In this document: positions 20,969 to 39,904 of the stretch, piece by piece
Layout of the letters: each line of letters opens with the position of its first letter
Position numbering within the stretch: position 1 is the stretch's first letter
The notes under the pieces: model-generated
Told to the model about the DNA's origin: nothing
The model's input: only the letters and a program-made list of their open reading frames with translations
Database searches by the model: none
Origin: Thermodesulfobacterium sp.
GTDB taxonomy: Bacteria > Desulfobacterota > Thermodesulfobacteria > Thermodesulfobacteriales > Thermodesulfobacteriaceae
Direction of reading: 5' to 3'
Length of the DNA stretch: 64,000 nucleotides
Assembly (NCBI GenBank): GCA_017656385.1
Contig: JACDNX010000003.1
Coordinates: 1-64,000, forward strand
Translations under genes and position numbers: made by a program

Positions 20969-21829
20969 ATGAAAAAACCTTTAATAAGCGTTATTATCCC
21001 CACATATAACAGAGCTTATATTCTTCCTAAAGCCATAGAAAGTGTTTTTAATCAGACTTTTAGAGATTTAGAGCTTATTATTGTTGATGATGGTTCAACG
21101 GATGAAACTCCTTATTTAGTTGCTAAATACCCTCTAATTTATGTGAGAAAGCCTCATAGAGGTGTCTCTCATGCAAGAAATGTAGGAGTTTTGAAGGCCA
21201 AAGGAGAGTTTATCGCTTTTCTTGACAGTGACGATGTTTTCGTTCCAGAAAAATTAGAGAAACAAATTAAGTTTTTAGAAAAAAAGCCTTCTTATAAAAT
21301 TGTTCAAACTGAAGAAGTTTGGTATAAAGGAGAAAAAAGAATAAATCCCAAAAAAATTCATCAAAAAGCTGAAGGATGGTTTTTTGACAGAGCTATAAAG
21401 CTTTGTGTAGTCTCAATCTCTACGGTCTTGATAAAAAAAGAAGTTTTTGAGGAAATAGGGCTGTTTGATGAAAATTTTCCAGTATGTGAGGATTATGAAT
21501 TTTGGCTGAGAGTTTCACTAAAAATGCCTGTTGGTCTTATTAAGGAATATTTGGTAATTAAAAGCGGAGGAAGACCTGATCAGCTCTCTGCTATGAAAGG
21601 ACTTGATTACTACAGAACCTTAGCGCTTATAAAACTCTTTAAGAACTATCAAAAAGATTTAAAATTAGAACAAAAGCTCATGCTTTATGCTGAAGCAAAA
21701 AAGAAGTTTGAGATATTTTATAAAGGAGCTTTAAAGCATGGAAATTTTAAAAAAGCTTATTTTCTTAAGAAAGTTTTTAGAGAAACCTTTGGTAATTCTA
21801 TAATAACTTCATTCCGAAGTATTGAATAA
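20969..21829 (+). CDS. Family 2 glycosyltransferase
   Basis: This 286-residue protein has the GT-A fold of family 2. The N terminus SVIIPTYNRAYILPKAIESV and VDDGST near residues 39-44 bind the nucleotide sugar. FLDSDD near 84-89 is the metal-binding DxD region. An acidic ED motif (CEDYEFWLR) lies near 171 and would carry the catalytic base. Donor and acceptor are unknown; a cell-surface glycan role is likely. Confidence 0.9.
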   Translation: MKKPLISVIIPTYNRAYILPKAIESVFNQTFRDLELIIVDDGSTDETPYLVAKYPLIYVRKPHRGVSHARNVGVLKAKGEFIAFLDSDDVFVPEKLEKQIKFLEKKPSYKIVQTEEVWYKGEKRINPKKIHQKAEGWFFDRAIKLCVVSISTVLIKKEVFEEIGLFDENFPVCEDYEFWLRVSLKMPVGLIKEYLVIKSGGRPDQLSAMKGLDYYRTLALIKLFKNYQKDLKLEQKLMLYAEAKKKFEIFYKGALKHGNFKKAYFLKKVFRETFGNSIITSFRSIE

Positions 21830-35364: not shown

Positions 35365-35393
35365 TTGACTTCCGTTATATTTATCCATATATA
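35365..35393 (+). promoter_or_regulatory. Predicted promoter of the tungstate locus
   Basis: TTGACT (35365-35370) and TATATA (35388-35393) are 17 bp apart. The -10 lies inside the first ModE-like operator, so regulator binding would block RNA polymerase. Confidence 0.55.
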
Positions 35394-35396
35394 ACC
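35373..35396. promoter_or_regulatory. ModE-like operator, site A
   Basis: A 24-bp near-palindrome has half-sites CGTTATAT and ATATAACC separated by 8 bp. E. coli ModE sites have the same layout (CGTTATAT, 8 bp, ATAACG-type arm). Only the last base departs from symmetry. It covers the predicted -10. Confidence 0.65.
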
Positions 35397-35406: not shown

Positions 35407-35430
35407 CGTTATTTATAACTGAAAATAACG
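35407..35430. promoter_or_regulatory. ModE-like operator, site B
   Basis: A second 24-bp element has the arms CGTTATTT and AAATAACG around 8 bp. Its centre is 34 bp from that of site A. It lies downstream of the predicted start, in the leader of the tungstate-binding fusion gene. Confidence 0.65.
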
Positions 35431-35475: not shown

Positions 35476-37266
35476 ATGAGTAGATTAAAGCAAATTATAT
35501 TTATTCTGTTAATTTTTATTCTAATTTCAATTGGAAAGTTAAATGCACAGCTTAAATGTAATGAGATTTATGGAAAGGGACAAAATAAAATTTATGTTGC
35601 AACAGGAAGTCCAGGAGAACTGGGTTTGTTGAAGGTGCTTGCTGAGGAGTTTGCAAAAGATCACAATGTTTCTGTTTGCTGGATAAAAGCCGGAAGCGGG
35701 AAGGCTCTGAAGCTGTTGAAGGAAAAAAAGGTTGACCTCGTCCTTGTTCACGCTTCCGCTGCTGAAAAAAAGGCAGTAGCCGAGGGATGGGCTACCAGAA
35801 GAACCTTGATAGCTTCCAATGAATTTTACATAGTGGGCCCCCGGAATGATCCCGCAAGGGTTGCGGAGAGTAAAAGCGTCATTGAGGCTTACAGAAGAAT
35901 AGCTAAGGTTAAAGCCAGGTTTTTTTCAAGGGGTGATAACTCTGGTACCCATAAAAGAGAAATGCAAATATGGCATAAAGCTGGAATAATTCCACAGGGG
36001 AGCTGGTATGTGGTTACCAAAACTTTTATGTCAAAAACTCTTAGAATGGCGAATGATGAAAAAGGATATTTTATGACTGACAGTAGCACCTGGATAGTGA
36101 TGAGGGATAGATTGCCCAACTTGAGAATCCTGTTTAAGGGGGATAAGCTTCTTATTAATGTGTATCACGCTCTGTGTCAAAAAGAATGTAATATTTTCGC
36201 GGGCAGGTTTATTGACTTTTTGGCTTCGGAAGAGGGACAGAGGATTATAAGAGAATTCGGCAGGGAAGTTTACGGAGAAGCGCTCTACAGGGACGCAGAT
36301 TATGCTAAAAAATACGAGGAACCGGATGAGGAGGGGGTTTTAATCATAGAGGGAGCGGTAAAAAACAGGACCGAGCTCAACTTAAGAGACCTCTTAAAAG
36401 ACTTTACACCTTATGAGGTAACCTTGGTGGAAGTGACATCCGATGGAGGGTATCACGGTGCATTCGTTTACAGAGGGGTATCCCTGAGAGACCTTTTGAA
36501 ACAGGTTCAAATTCAGAAGAAGAGCAAGGGTTTTTCAAAGTTAATTGACACCGGTGTGATGATTGAGAATAAGCAAGGAAAAAAGGTTTTCGTCTCGTGG
36601 GGAGAAATTTTTTACAGGGATCCGGAGAGGGTGCTAATAGCCTATTCTTACAAACTAATAAGACCCCATCACCTAAATTGCGGTAAATGTCACACAAAGG
36701 AGTTTTACACCCAGATTTTGAGTCAACTTGAAAGACCTGTAAAGATGCCCAAACTTGTTATAGTAGACGACTTTTACACGGATAGGTGTATAGAGGATGT
36801 GTCAACCATTAAAGTGGTGGAGACGGACAATTTCACGGTTCATAAAAAGTTGGAGAGGTTTTATTCAAACAGAATAAGGATACTCAAAAACGGTGTTGAG
36901 GTCGGAGAAATTTCAGAATTGTATGGAAAGGAGAGGTCAGAGGTTAAAGTGAAGGTACTGGGAGAGGGAAGGGGATATCACGGAATAAAAGTTTTTGAGG
37001 GTGTTGAGCTGAAGGAAGTTTTAAAGAACCTGAACATTGAGAAAACCCTCAACGGGGCGGTGGTGGTTTACGGAATTGACGGATACAGAGGCGTTTTTTC
37101 TCTGGGAGAGATATTCCTGTCCGGAGAGAGGGTATTTATTGCTGATAAGGTTAATCAAAGTCCGATTGATAAGGGCGGTAAGTTCGTCGTGCTCTCCTCC
37201 GGGGACATTTTTGCCGATAGAATGATAAAAGCCGTATCTGAGATAAGATTAATTTTTTCACCTTGA
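35476..37266 (+). CDS. Exported TupA-like protein fused to two molybdopterin-oxidoreductase-like domains with CxxCH
   Basis: A 596-residue exported protein with a signal peptide ending near LNA-Q (residue 24). Residues 36-275 resemble TupA-type tungstate-binding proteins, keeping SRGDNSGTHKRE (151-162), although the usual TTTS ligand motif is TGSPGE. Residues 287-449 and 463-596 are two related domains like the sulfite-oxidase molybdopterin fold (GYHGAFVYRGVSLRDLL and GYHGIKVFEGVELKEVL), both without the Mo-ligand cysteine. A heme-c motif CGKCH (402-406) sits in a loop of the first. AAAGGGG precedes the ATG. Base composition is richer in G+C than its neighbours. Function is unknown; tungstate-linked sensing or delivery is inferred. 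Confidence 0.78.
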   Translation: MSRLKQIIFILLIFILISIGKLNAQLKCNEIYGKGQNKIYVATGSPGELGLLKVLAEEFAKDHNVSVCWIKAGSGKALKLLKEKKVDLVLVHASAAEKKAVAEGWATRRTLIASNEFYIVGPRNDPARVAESKSVIEAYRRIAKVKARFFSRGDNSGTHKREMQIWHKAGIIPQGSWYVVTKTFMSKTLRMANDEKGYFMTDSSTWIVMRDRLPNLRILFKGDKLLINVYHALCQKECNIFAGRFIDFLASEEGQRIIREFGREVYGEALYRDADYAKKYEEPDEEGVLIIEGAVKNRTELNLRDLLKDFTPYEVTLVEVTSDGGYHGAFVYRGVSLRDLLKQVQIQKKSKGFSKLIDTGVMIENKQGKKVFVSWGEIFYRDPERVLIAYSYKLIRPHHLNCGKCHTKEFYTQILSQLERPVKMPKLVIVDDFYTDRCIEDVSTIKVVETDNFTVHKKLERFYSNRIRILKNGVEVGEISELYGKERSEVKVKVLGEGRGYHGIKVFEGVELKEVLKNLNIEKTLNGAVVVYGIDGYRGVFSLGEIFLSGERVFIADKVNQSPIDKGGKFVVLSSGDIFADRMIKAVSEIRLIFSP

Positions 37267-37299: not shown

Positions 37300-37695
37300 A
37301 TGAAAAAAAATCTTGAGAAGGATTATCATCGGTTTTGTATTGTTGAAAGTGATAAAAAAGAGGGTTTTAGGTTAAAAGGGAAGATATGGATAGAAGGGGA
37401 GGGCAGGACTTTTTTTGGTATGGGAAGAGCTGAGCTCCTTGAAAAAATTAAAGAATACGGTTCCATTTCTAAAGCAGCCAGAGCTATGAATATTTCTTAT
37501 AAAAAAGCATGGGATCTTGTTGAATCCATGAACAGACAGGCTAAAAGTCCTCTGGTAATTACAAAGGTGGGAGGAAAAGGGGGTGGAGGTGCTCAACTTA
37601 CTCCAGAAGGAGAAGAAATTTTGAGACAGTTTAAAAAACTCTACAGTCGTTTTAAAAATTTTTTAGAAAAGGAGATTAAAAATTTTAAATTTTAA
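37300..37695 (+). CDS. ModE-like winged-helix regulator without Mop domain
   Basis: This 131-residue protein matches the DNA-binding half of ModE: LKGKIWIEGEGRTFFGMGRAELLEKI, the helix-turn-helix GSISKAARAMNISYKKAWDLVESMN (about 65-90) and the wing GGKGGGGAQLTPEGEEIL. The C-terminal molybdate/tungstate-binding Mop (TOBE) domains are absent, so oxyanion sensing must occur elsewhere or not at all. It is placed between the fusion gene and tupABC, and ModE-type operators lie upstream of the locus. Confidence 0.88.
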   Translation: MKKNLEKDYHRFCIVESDKKEGFRLKGKIWIEGEGRTFFGMGRAELLEKIKEYGSISKAARAMNISYKKAWDLVESMNRQAKSPLVITKVGGKGGGGAQLTPEGEEILRQFKKLYSRFKNFLEKEIKNFKF

Positions 37696-37712: not shown

Positions 37713-38531
37713 ATGAGATGGAAAAGTCTTTTTTCTATTATTCTCTTACTTTTCTTCTTTTTAGTAAATTTGAGTTTTGCAGAGGGAAAAATATTAATTC
37801 TTGCAACAACTACTTCAGTAGAGAATTCAGGGTTATTAGAATATCTTTTGCCTTATTTTGAGAAGAAAACAGGAATTAAAGTAAAAGTAGTGGCAAGAGG
37901 AACAGGAGCTGCTATTGAGATGGGTAAAAGAGGGGATGCAGATGTTGTTTTTGTTCATGCAAAAGAACTTGAAATTAAAGCAGTTAAAGAAGGTTTTTTT
38001 GTTAATAGAAAAGAAGTTTGCTACAACGATTTTATTATTGTTGGTCCAAAAAGCGATCCAGCTAAGGTGAGAACTTCTAAAAATGTAGTTTCAGCTTTTA
38101 AAAAAATTGCCAATACAAAGGCGCTTTTTGTGTCTCGTGGAGACAATTCAGGAACCCATTTTAAAGAGCTAAAAATTTGGAAGTTAGCAGGTATCAATCC
38201 AAGAGGTGAGTTTTGGTATTTAGAAGCCGGGCAGGGAATGGAAAAAACTTTATTTATGGCAAACGAAAAGGATGCCTATACCCTTACTGATAGAGGTACA
38301 TGGCTTGCTGTAAGAGCCCGTCTGAAATACTTAACGATCCTTTTTAAGGGGGATCCGCTTCTATACAATCAGTATAGTGTCATGGCAGTAAATCCAAAAA
38401 AACATCCTCATGTAAATTATGAAGAAGCTATGAAGTTTATTAACTGGATTACCTCAACTGAAGGGCAAAAACTTATAGGTTCATTTAGAGATAAGTTTGG
38501 AAATCAGCTCTTTATACCGAATGCTAAATAG
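37713..38531 (+). CDS. tupA: Tungstate ABC transporter, periplasmic binding protein
   Basis: This 272-residue exported protein has a Sec signal peptide (about 1-24, ending SFA-EG) and the tungstate-binding TTTSVENSGLL motif near residues 32-42. RGTGAAIEMGKRGDADVVFVHA and SRGDNSGTH follow as in TupA. It delivers tungstate (or molybdate) to TupBC. AGGAG precedes the ATG. It is a paralogue of the N-terminal half of the fusion protein at 35.5 kb but keeps the canonical ligand motif. Confidence 0.95.
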   Translation: MRWKSLFSIILLLFFFLVNLSFAEGKILILATTTSVENSGLLEYLLPYFEKKTGIKVKVVARGTGAAIEMGKRGDADVVFVHAKELEIKAVKEGFFVNRKEVCYNDFIIVGPKSDPAKVRTSKNVVSAFKKIANTKALFVSRGDNSGTHFKELKIWKLAGINPRGEFWYLEAGQGMEKTLFMANEKDAYTLTDRGTWLAVRARLKYLTILFKGDPLLYNQYSVMAVNPKKHPHVNYEEAMKFINWITSTEGQKLIGSFRDKFGNQLFIPNAK

Positions 38532-38534
38532 TTT

Positions 38535-39248
38535 ATGGAATTTTTGATAGAAGCCTTTAAAAAGGCACTTTTTCTTATTATTAATTTGGACAGAGAGCTT
38601 CTTGAAATTATTTTTCTTTCCTTAAAAGTTTCTTTTTCAGCACTTATAGTAGCATCCATTTTTGGTATTCCTTTGGGAGCTTTTCTGGGAATGAAGAAAT
38701 TTCCGGGTAAAAATGCTGTTATAATTTTTTTAAATACAGGAATGGGGCTTCCTCCGGTTGTTGTAGGGCTTTTTCTTTATATGCTTTTTTCAAGAAGCGG
38801 TCCTTTGGGATTTCTGCATTTGCTTTATACTCCTACTGCTATGATAATTGCACAGTTCGTGCTGGCTTTTCCTATAGTTACAGCCCTTTCCCAAGCTTCT
38901 ATTATGAAAGTTGATCCTATAATTAAGCTTACTGCTAAAACTCTCGGAGCAACTCCTTTTCAGGTTGCTTTAACTATAATAAAAGAGGCAAGATATGGAA
39001 TTCTTGCAGGAGTTATAGCAGGACTTGGCAGAGTTATGGCTGAGGTGGGTGCTATTTTGATTGTGGGAGGAAATATAGCAGGTTATACAAGGGTTATGAC
39101 AACCACCATAGCTCTGGAGACTGATAAGGGTAACTTTGAACTTGCCCTTGCCTTGGGTATAATACTTCTTACCATATCTTTTTTAATTAACATTACACTT
39201 TATTTTATTCAGAAAAAAGGAGTTCCTGCTAATACTACATGGCTTTAG
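38535..39248 (+). CDS. tupB: Tungstate ABC transporter permease
   Basis: This 237-residue inner membrane protein has five to six hydrophobic segments and the EAA-type loop (KTLGATPFQVALTIIKEARYGILAGVIAGLGRVMAEVGAI) that docks with the ATPase. It lies 3 bp after tupA and overlaps tupC by 10 bp, giving a standard tupABC order. Confidence 0.95.
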   Translation: MEFLIEAFKKALFLIINLDRELLEIIFLSLKVSFSALIVASIFGIPLGAFLGMKKFPGKNAVIIFLNTGMGLPPVVVGLFLYMLFSRSGPLGFLHLLYTPTAMIIAQFVLAFPIVTALSQASIMKVDPIIKLTAKTLGATPFQVALTIIKEARYGILAGVIAGLGRVMAEVGAILIVGGNIAGYTRVMTTTIALETDKGNFELALALGIILLTISFLINITLYFIQKKGVPANTTWL

Positions 39249-39904
39249 AACTTATAGTTTCTAAAATCTGGAAAATATACGAGGGCAGACCTGTTTTAAG
39301 AGATCTTTCTTTTGTCTTTGATAGAAAAAGGATTTATGTGATTATGGGACCCAATGGAAGCGGGAAAACTACATTTTTGAAAATATGTGCTCTTCTTGAA
39401 GTTCCTGATAAAGGAAAAGTTTTTTATCTCAATTCAGATAAAAAGCGTCTTCCTAAGGATATAAATCTTTTCAGAAAAATAACTTATGTATTTCCTGAAG
39501 TGGGGATTTTTAATGCTTCGGTTTTTGACAATGTGGCTTATGGGCTAAAGATAAGAGGTTTTAAGAAAAAAGAAATAGTTGCCAGAGTAGAAGAGGTTCT
39601 TGATTTTGTAGGGTTAATACATAAGAAAAAGCAAAACGCTTTAACCCTTTCAAGTGGTGAAGCAAAAAGAATGGGAATTGCAAGGGCAATAGTGATAGAG
39701 CCTGAGTTTATTTTTTTAGATGAGCCAACAGCATTTGTTGATATGAAAAATACAGAAATAATTGAAAAAATTCTTCTTCAAATTAAAGAAAGAGAGAAAT
39801 CAACTATTATTATAGCAACGCACGACACATATTTTGCTTCAAAAGTGGGAGATATTATTTTAAAATTGGAAAATGGCAAACTTTTAACTGAAAACTCCGC
39901 TTAA
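39239..39904 (+). CDS. tupC: Tungstate ABC transporter ATP-binding protein
   Basis: This 221-residue ABC ATPase has Walker A GPNGSGKTT near residues 37-45, the signature LSSGEAKRMGIARA near 137-150, Walker B FIFLDEPTAF near 158-167 and a switch His in ATHD. It powers tungstate uptake with TupAB. It overlaps tupB by 10 bp and the convergent proC by 21 bp. Confidence 0.95.
   Translation: MALELIVSKIWKIYEGRPVLRDLSFVFDRKRIYVIMGPNGSGKTTFLKICALLEVPDKGKVFYLNSDKKRLPKDINLFRKITYVFPEVGIFNASVFDNVAYGLKIRGFKKKEIVARVEEVLDFVGLIHKKKQNALTLSSGEAKRMGIARAIVIEPEFIFLDEPTAFVDMKNTEIIEKILLQIKEREKSTIIIATHDTYFASKVGDIILKLENGKLLTENSA

Follow-up and report, generated by a model that had tools for sequence, protein, structure and literature searches.

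A TupA-like protein fused to two predicted sulfite oxidase-type domains in Thermodesulfobacterium, and its relatives in predicted Mo/W-regulated gene clusters of Desulfobacterota

The fusion gene and its operon

The window analyzed here is a stretch of 64,000 nucleotides from the 1.67-Mb genome of a Thermodesulfobacterium sp., a thermophilic sulfate reducer (contig JACDNX010000003.1, positions 1 to 64,000 of the forward strand). It contains a gene that joins a TupA-like solute-binding half to two domains of predicted sulfite oxidase type, preceded by two ModE-type operators and followed on the same strand by genes for a ModE-type protein and a tungstate transporter. The features are the following (evidence in brackets).

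35373..35396, + strand: ModE-type operator 1, CGTTATATTTATCCATATATAACC (pattern search; one mismatch to CGNTAT-N12-ATANCG)
35407..35430, + strand: ModE-type operator 2, CGTTATTTATAACTGAAAATAACG, identical in L002 (pattern search; the only perfect CGNTAT-N12-ATANCG in the genome)
35476..37266, + strand: fusion gene, 596 aa, TGSPG-type TupA domain plus two putative Moco-less PF00174 domains (ORF, Pfam, NCBIfam, PDB profiles)
35476..35550, + strand: signal-peptide-like N-terminus, aa 1-25 (by inspection)
35581..36261, + strand: TupA-like solute-binding domain, aa 36-262 (PF12849, PDB 3lr1/5my5 matches)
35599..35619, + strand: ATGSPGE, aa 42-48, where TupA has its TTTS ligand loop; diagnostic of the subfamily (24 TGSPG-type sequences aligned with 14 of TupA)
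35926..35952, + strand: SRGDNSGTH, aa 151-159, with counterparts of TupA R118 (Arg) and T124 (Thr) kept (alignment; ligand roles from PMC5517513)
36331..36819, + strand: first predicted sulfite oxidase-type (PF00174) domain, about aa 286-448, without the Mo-ligand Cys (profiles, alignment; ends approximate)
36679..36693, + strand: CGKCH, aa 402-406, heme-c attachment motif in the insert of the first domain (motif, alignment)
36856..37257, + strand: second predicted sulfite oxidase-type domain, about aa 461-594 (profiles, alignment; ends approximate)
36961..36984, + strand: GEGRGYHG, aa 496-503, a second-domain loop that is conserved, with a His invariant in 17 relatives (alignment)
37300..37695, + strand: ModE-type DNA-binding protein, HTH domain only, 131 aa (TIGR00637, 86 bits; cut-off 98.5)
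37713..38531, + strand: ordinary TupA, TTTS kept (NF041772, 252 bits; cut-off of 400 missed)
38535..39248, + strand: TupB-type permease (NF038017, 260 bits, over the cut-off; NF041773, 177 bits)
39239..39904, + strand: TupC-type ABC ATPase (PF00005, operon position)

The tandem operators lie 46-103 bases upstream of the fusion start codon and, with 0.04 matches to CGTTAT-N10..13-ATAAC expected by chance in the window, the original prediction of ModE-like operators at this place holds. The published ModE consensus is ATCGNTATATA-N6-TATATANCGAT, and a Geobacter site reads ATCGTTATgTcaTgAAggtTATAGCGtT (PMC545781). A looser version of the pattern has further matches in the genome; one of them, at 20989-21010, falls inside a glycosyltransferase-like ORF and was taken as chance.

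The same domain order was found once more among the 395 Desulfobacterota genomes, in a Thermodesulfobacterium MAG of the same genus (L002:100-1887, 76% identical to the window copy), where an in-frame TAG at codon 166 is either a real stop or an assembly error. We use the label diMo for relatives of the C-terminal half of the fusion; in the class to which the window belongs both diMo cases (2/41 genomes) are fused to a tupA of the TGSPG type. Comparison of the two fusion genes gave a dN/dS of about 0.1. Their dS, 1.3 with saturation in the C-terminal domains, is several times the 0.20-0.34 of the neighbouring genes, i.e., the two alleles diverge more than the surrounding operon, as after recombination.

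The two halves of the protein

Residues 36-253 of the fusion match PF12849 (PBP_like_2; Pfam, E 2.8e-32) and the nearest solved structures to this half, by PDB profiles, are those of TupA (3lr1 and 5my5). The score against the NCBIfam TupA model NF041772 was 133 bits, under its equivalog cut-off of 400. The tungstate ligands of TupA are Thr9-11/Ser12, His59, Arg118, Thr124 and Asp170 (PMC5517513). In our alignment the equivalents of the last four are kept in the window copy and in nearly all TGSPG-type sequences. The change of the TTTS motif, noticed in the original prediction, is real, and it is no peculiarity of this protein but the signature of a whole group: ATGSPG or a close variant (ATGSPG(E/A/S)) is present in 23/23 of the sequences that include the region, out of 24 TGSPG-type sequences aligned. 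Across the 395 genomes, identity to the window copy was 50-65% within this group and at most 46% for ordinary TupA, which sets the TGSPG-type proteins apart as a discrete subfamily. The half resembles TupA in its fold (by sequence), in the four conserved ligand positions and in operon context, and differs from it in the change from TTTS to ATGS-PG(E), the sub-cut-off score, the extra domains and the presence of an ordinary TupA in the same operon. With TTTS changed, oxyanion binding by the TGSPG-type domain is not assured.

Genes of this subfamily are found in tup operons (L070, L071, L072, L074, L081 and L090) and in a wtp-type operon (L088), and a Porin_O_P or Alginate_exp barrel gene adjoins them in L070, L084, L086-L089 and L091. 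In L084 the genes run in series: exbD, tonB, one for a free-standing tetrapyrrole-methylase-fold protein that has a signal peptide, TGSPG-tupA and one for a porin. Three other fusions combine a TGSPG-type TupA with WtpA (L086:7421-9235, L087:7524-9347 and L091:1961-3712); the WtpA part of the first, the one of the three scanned with NCBIfam, scored 403 bits against a cut-off of 355. As in the window protein, the same N-terminal subfamily is joined to another periplasmic module linked to Mo/W, the differences being that the partner is the WtpA binding protein and that an outer-membrane barrel gene lies alongside. This barrel gene, Alginate_exp-type or similar, is directly upstream of all three.

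In the C-terminal half PF00174 (Oxidored_molyb) was found twice (Pfam, E 6.1e-8 in the full protein), and hhalign identifies one copy as a homologue of the other (probability 99.4%, E 2e-21). The presence of a TupA-like half and two predicted sulfite oxidase-type domains in one ORF is confirmed. A PF00174 match was obtained in 17/17 of the relatives scanned. The best PDB profile matches were SorA sulfite dehydrogenase chains, weak (E 0.05) yet in register, and the position of the SorA Mo-ligand Cys is occupied by V, L, I or M in 17/17 of the aligned sequences, in agreement with the absence of this Cys noticed initially. An AlphaFold2 model computed with three sequences had a pLDDT of 35, so that the proposed sulfite oxidase-type fold rests on the sequence profiles. 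The likeness to sulfite oxidase and SorA stops there: the fusion lacks the Mo-ligand Cys and matching catalytic subunits, its copies are in tandem, and one of them has a heme-c motif in a loop. Domain 1 also has a conserved SWGE and R, and domain 2 a conserved GxGxG[YF]HG, DGYR and ADR. A weak likeness to the GEGP motif-containing diheme protein NF041762 was detected across the GEGxGYHG region (the window protein gave E 0.0047, one relative 5e-5). The score is far under the 300-bit cut-off and there is one CxxCH versus two, and this family was rejected on score. The PHROGs profile search gave no match and no relatives were found in viral contigs.

In the hhalign comparison, the CxxCH of domain 1 falls in an inserted stretch without counterpart in domain 2; the original prediction had put it in a loop of the first domain. 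A signal-peptide-like start and CGKCH at aa 402-406 are both present, export plus CxxCH being the sequence criterion for a c-type cytochrome. The motif is kept in 16/17 sequences (alignment A2) and is missing from L051-L053, L055 and a whole distant subgroup of diMo proteins. Because several relatives linked to TonB receptors lack it, as does the distant subgroup, the CxxCH is a common trait of the diMo family, to which heme is not essential.

Gene clusters and palindrome of the unfused relatives

Counting the window's own genome, diMo genes were present in 29/395 Desulfobacterota genomes (28/394 without it). Outside the window's class they are free-standing (about 340 aa) or, often, extended to about 590 aa by a PF00590 domain at the C-terminus. 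Members of a TonB-dependent receptor family occur in 20 diMo loci, ExbB in 8 and ExbD in 7, and CcsA/ResB-like pairs occur in others. Several clusters also include Mo/W uptake genes. In L039 and L041 a WtpA equivalog starts 73 and 56 bases after diMo and is followed by the TonB receptor; the L044 cluster comes with tupABC and a ModE gene, that of L046 with a ModE gene and a mod-type operon, and in L036 a TGSPG-tupA is located some 5 kb from diMo. The distant subgroup, without CxxCH or TonB receptor, adjoins AOR-type genes (L058, L060) or WtpABC (L061, L063). Receptor, ExbB/ExbD/TonB and periplasmic protein in one cluster are reminiscent of TonB-dependent siderophore or heme uptake, and the receptors linked to diMo score about equally against heme and siderophore receptor models. 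The diMo clusters differ from such systems in their Mo/W operators and in the putative Moco-less sulfite oxidase-type periplasmic protein, and the window genome differs further in having no receptor next to the gene.

Some other features of these loci can be mentioned. The proteins of the distant subgroup (L058, L059, L060 and L061-L064) are membrane-anchored by appearance. An APC-family amino-acid permease gene is found in nine diMo loci, often adjoining diMo (L034, L035, L036, L037, L038, L048, L049, L052 and L053). PF00590 tetrapyrrole-methylase-fold proteins with a signal peptide are encoded at L084:1422-2366 and, as the C-terminal domain, at L034:5602-7353; to our knowledge, SAM is not expected in the periplasm. 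The idea that the CcsA/ResB-like genes attach the diMo heme was dropped, since the same genes accompany members without CxxCH.

We have analyzed the related loci for regulatory palindromes. ModE-type palindromes numbered 14, against 0-1 in shuffled sequences. A more closely defined version, TATGTCA-N4-TGACATA, was found 42 times versus 4-5 in the shuffles, and 20 times versus 0 when at most one mismatch was allowed; a form with a 6-base spacer was in no excess. The palindrome with the 4-base spacer is intergenic in 14/23 diMo loci, compared with 0-3 in 20 shuffles. As this palindrome had been defined after viewing the same upstream regions, an independent genome-wide check was run, in which 22 genomes gave 126 sites versus 25 for the reversed control (one strand counted). 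The majority of the other sites examined adjoin genes for AOR, formate dehydrogenase, XDH-type oxidoreductases, FdhD, FmdE, MoeA or ModA, and 10/10 of the proteins chosen as such neighbours were Mo/W-linked by Pfam; MoeA and a ModE domain were also confirmed. Sites without a neighbour of Mo/W type occur in L132, L135 and L140-L143. The palindrome thus precedes formate dehydrogenase, AOR, moeA and modABC elsewhere in the same genomes, which places the diMo operons in a predicted Mo/W regulon. In L138 (116-526 and 2026-4626), a fragment like the L084 tetrapyrrole-methylase-fold protein adjoins a modABC-type operon, with three Mo/W palindromes.

Proposed function and rival explanations

The reading that we favour, with moderate confidence, is that the fusion acts in the periplasm, capturing and handing over metal in a ModE-controlled route of Mo/W acquisition whose first step is at the outer membrane. 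From sequence features and gene context we infer the cargo and the direction of transfer, the binding of a Group 6 metal, the presence of heme and the hand-over to TupBC. The TGSPG-type domain would bind an oxyanion of a Group 6 metal, or a form related to it. The paired sulfite oxidase-type domains, no longer engaged in Moco catalysis, would receive or process a metal species crossing the outer membrane. If a c-type heme is attached at the CxxCH, it may contribute a redox reaction, e.g., one that releases the metal from a thio-species or chelate. With both modules in one chain, the TupA-type module would capture metal that the C-terminal module has freed or bound, and would deliver it to TupA/TupBC. 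In most Desulfobacterota the two functions would belong to separate genes. The window genome has two Cytochrom_C_asm genes, which would serve the heme, two AOR genes, which speak for a demand for tungsten, and four Plug-domain matches, these last away from the fusion gene, beside which no TonB receptor was found; with cytochrome c assembly genes, AOR genes and Plug-domain receptors elsewhere, all the needed partners are available in this genome. A delivery protein for tungstate, one of the roles first suggested, is upheld in outline by the tup operon, the ModE-type operators, the retention of the H59, R118, T124 and D170 equivalents and the Mo/W-regulated operons of the unfused relatives.

More tentatively, Desulfobacterota could possess a dedicated, ModE-controlled and TonB-dependent outer-membrane route for Mo/W (as oxyanion, thio-anion or chelate) that uses a heme-c, Moco-less sulfite oxidase-type protein together with a partner of tetrapyrrole-methylase fold in the periplasm. 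In the window protein the periplasmic step would be merged with an oxyanion-binding protein.

The C-terminal module might instead handle a tetrapyrrole or heme-like cargo imported by the TonB receptor, the methylase-fold domain, the CxxCH and the CcsA/ResB-like proteins serving its handling and the Mo/W control being indirect. The PF00590 domains fused to diMo, the CcsA/ResB-like neighbours, receptors that fit heme and siderophore models about equally and the CxxCH of most close relatives would all agree with this. However, we regard it as unlikely, given that the operators are those of Mo/W genes, that wtpA, tupABC, modABC and TGSPG-TupA are the neighbours or fusion partners, that the distant subgroup sits by AOR and WtpABC genes without a TonB receptor, and that members without CxxCH come with CcsA/ResB-like genes too. 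A role in delivering or salvaging a pterin (Moco/Wco or a precursor) would suppose that the predicted fold still binds pterin without the metal-ligand Cys. The fold, detected as PF00174 in 17/17 of the relatives scanned, would allow it, the Mo/W regulation is consistent with it and TonB receptors suit large scarce ligands in general, but none of the aligned sequences has the Mo-ligand Cys and the fused partner domains are binders of metal oxyanions and not pterin enzymes, which makes this quite improbable. We give slightly less credit still to a periplasmic electron-transfer or redox enzyme subunit, i.e., a mono-heme cytochrome that reduces or oxidizes Mo/W species and for which transport is secondary: the CxxCH in 16/17 sequences (alignment A2) and the cytochrome c assembly genes speak for it, and the lack of the CxxCH in several members of the same gene context against it. 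The secreted tungstate sensor of the original prediction, suggested by a binding domain with extra domains behind ModE-type operators, has very little to recommend it, as the protein is without a transmembrane output or signalling module, the ModE-type protein of the operon already provides regulation and the relatives sit with transport genes.

Passage of molybdate and tungstate through the outer membrane is usually ascribed to unspecific porins. Our literature search, over papers available outside subscription, found no description of a TonB receptor for Mo/W, of a diMo-type protein or of such a fusion. Because of the sulfide in their habitats, sulfate reducers find Mo and W as scarce thio-forms, so that a regulated outer-membrane step would be plausible and testable. 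The fusion joins two families otherwise encoded by separate genes and offers one protein in which oxyanion, heme and pterin binding can be examined together. Under the favoured reading of capture and hand-over, a sulfite oxidase-type domain would have exchanged its catalytic role for a different one, and tetrapyrrole-methylase-fold domains would work in the periplasm, a compartment in which no SAM is expected. The Mo/W regulation of the TonB receptor clusters is evidence of association and not of transport. The Mo/W-regulated set of outer-membrane and periplasmic genes is a stronger finding than the single fusion, and the Mo/W control of the relatives beside an outer-membrane receptor points to an undescribed first step of Mo/W uptake.
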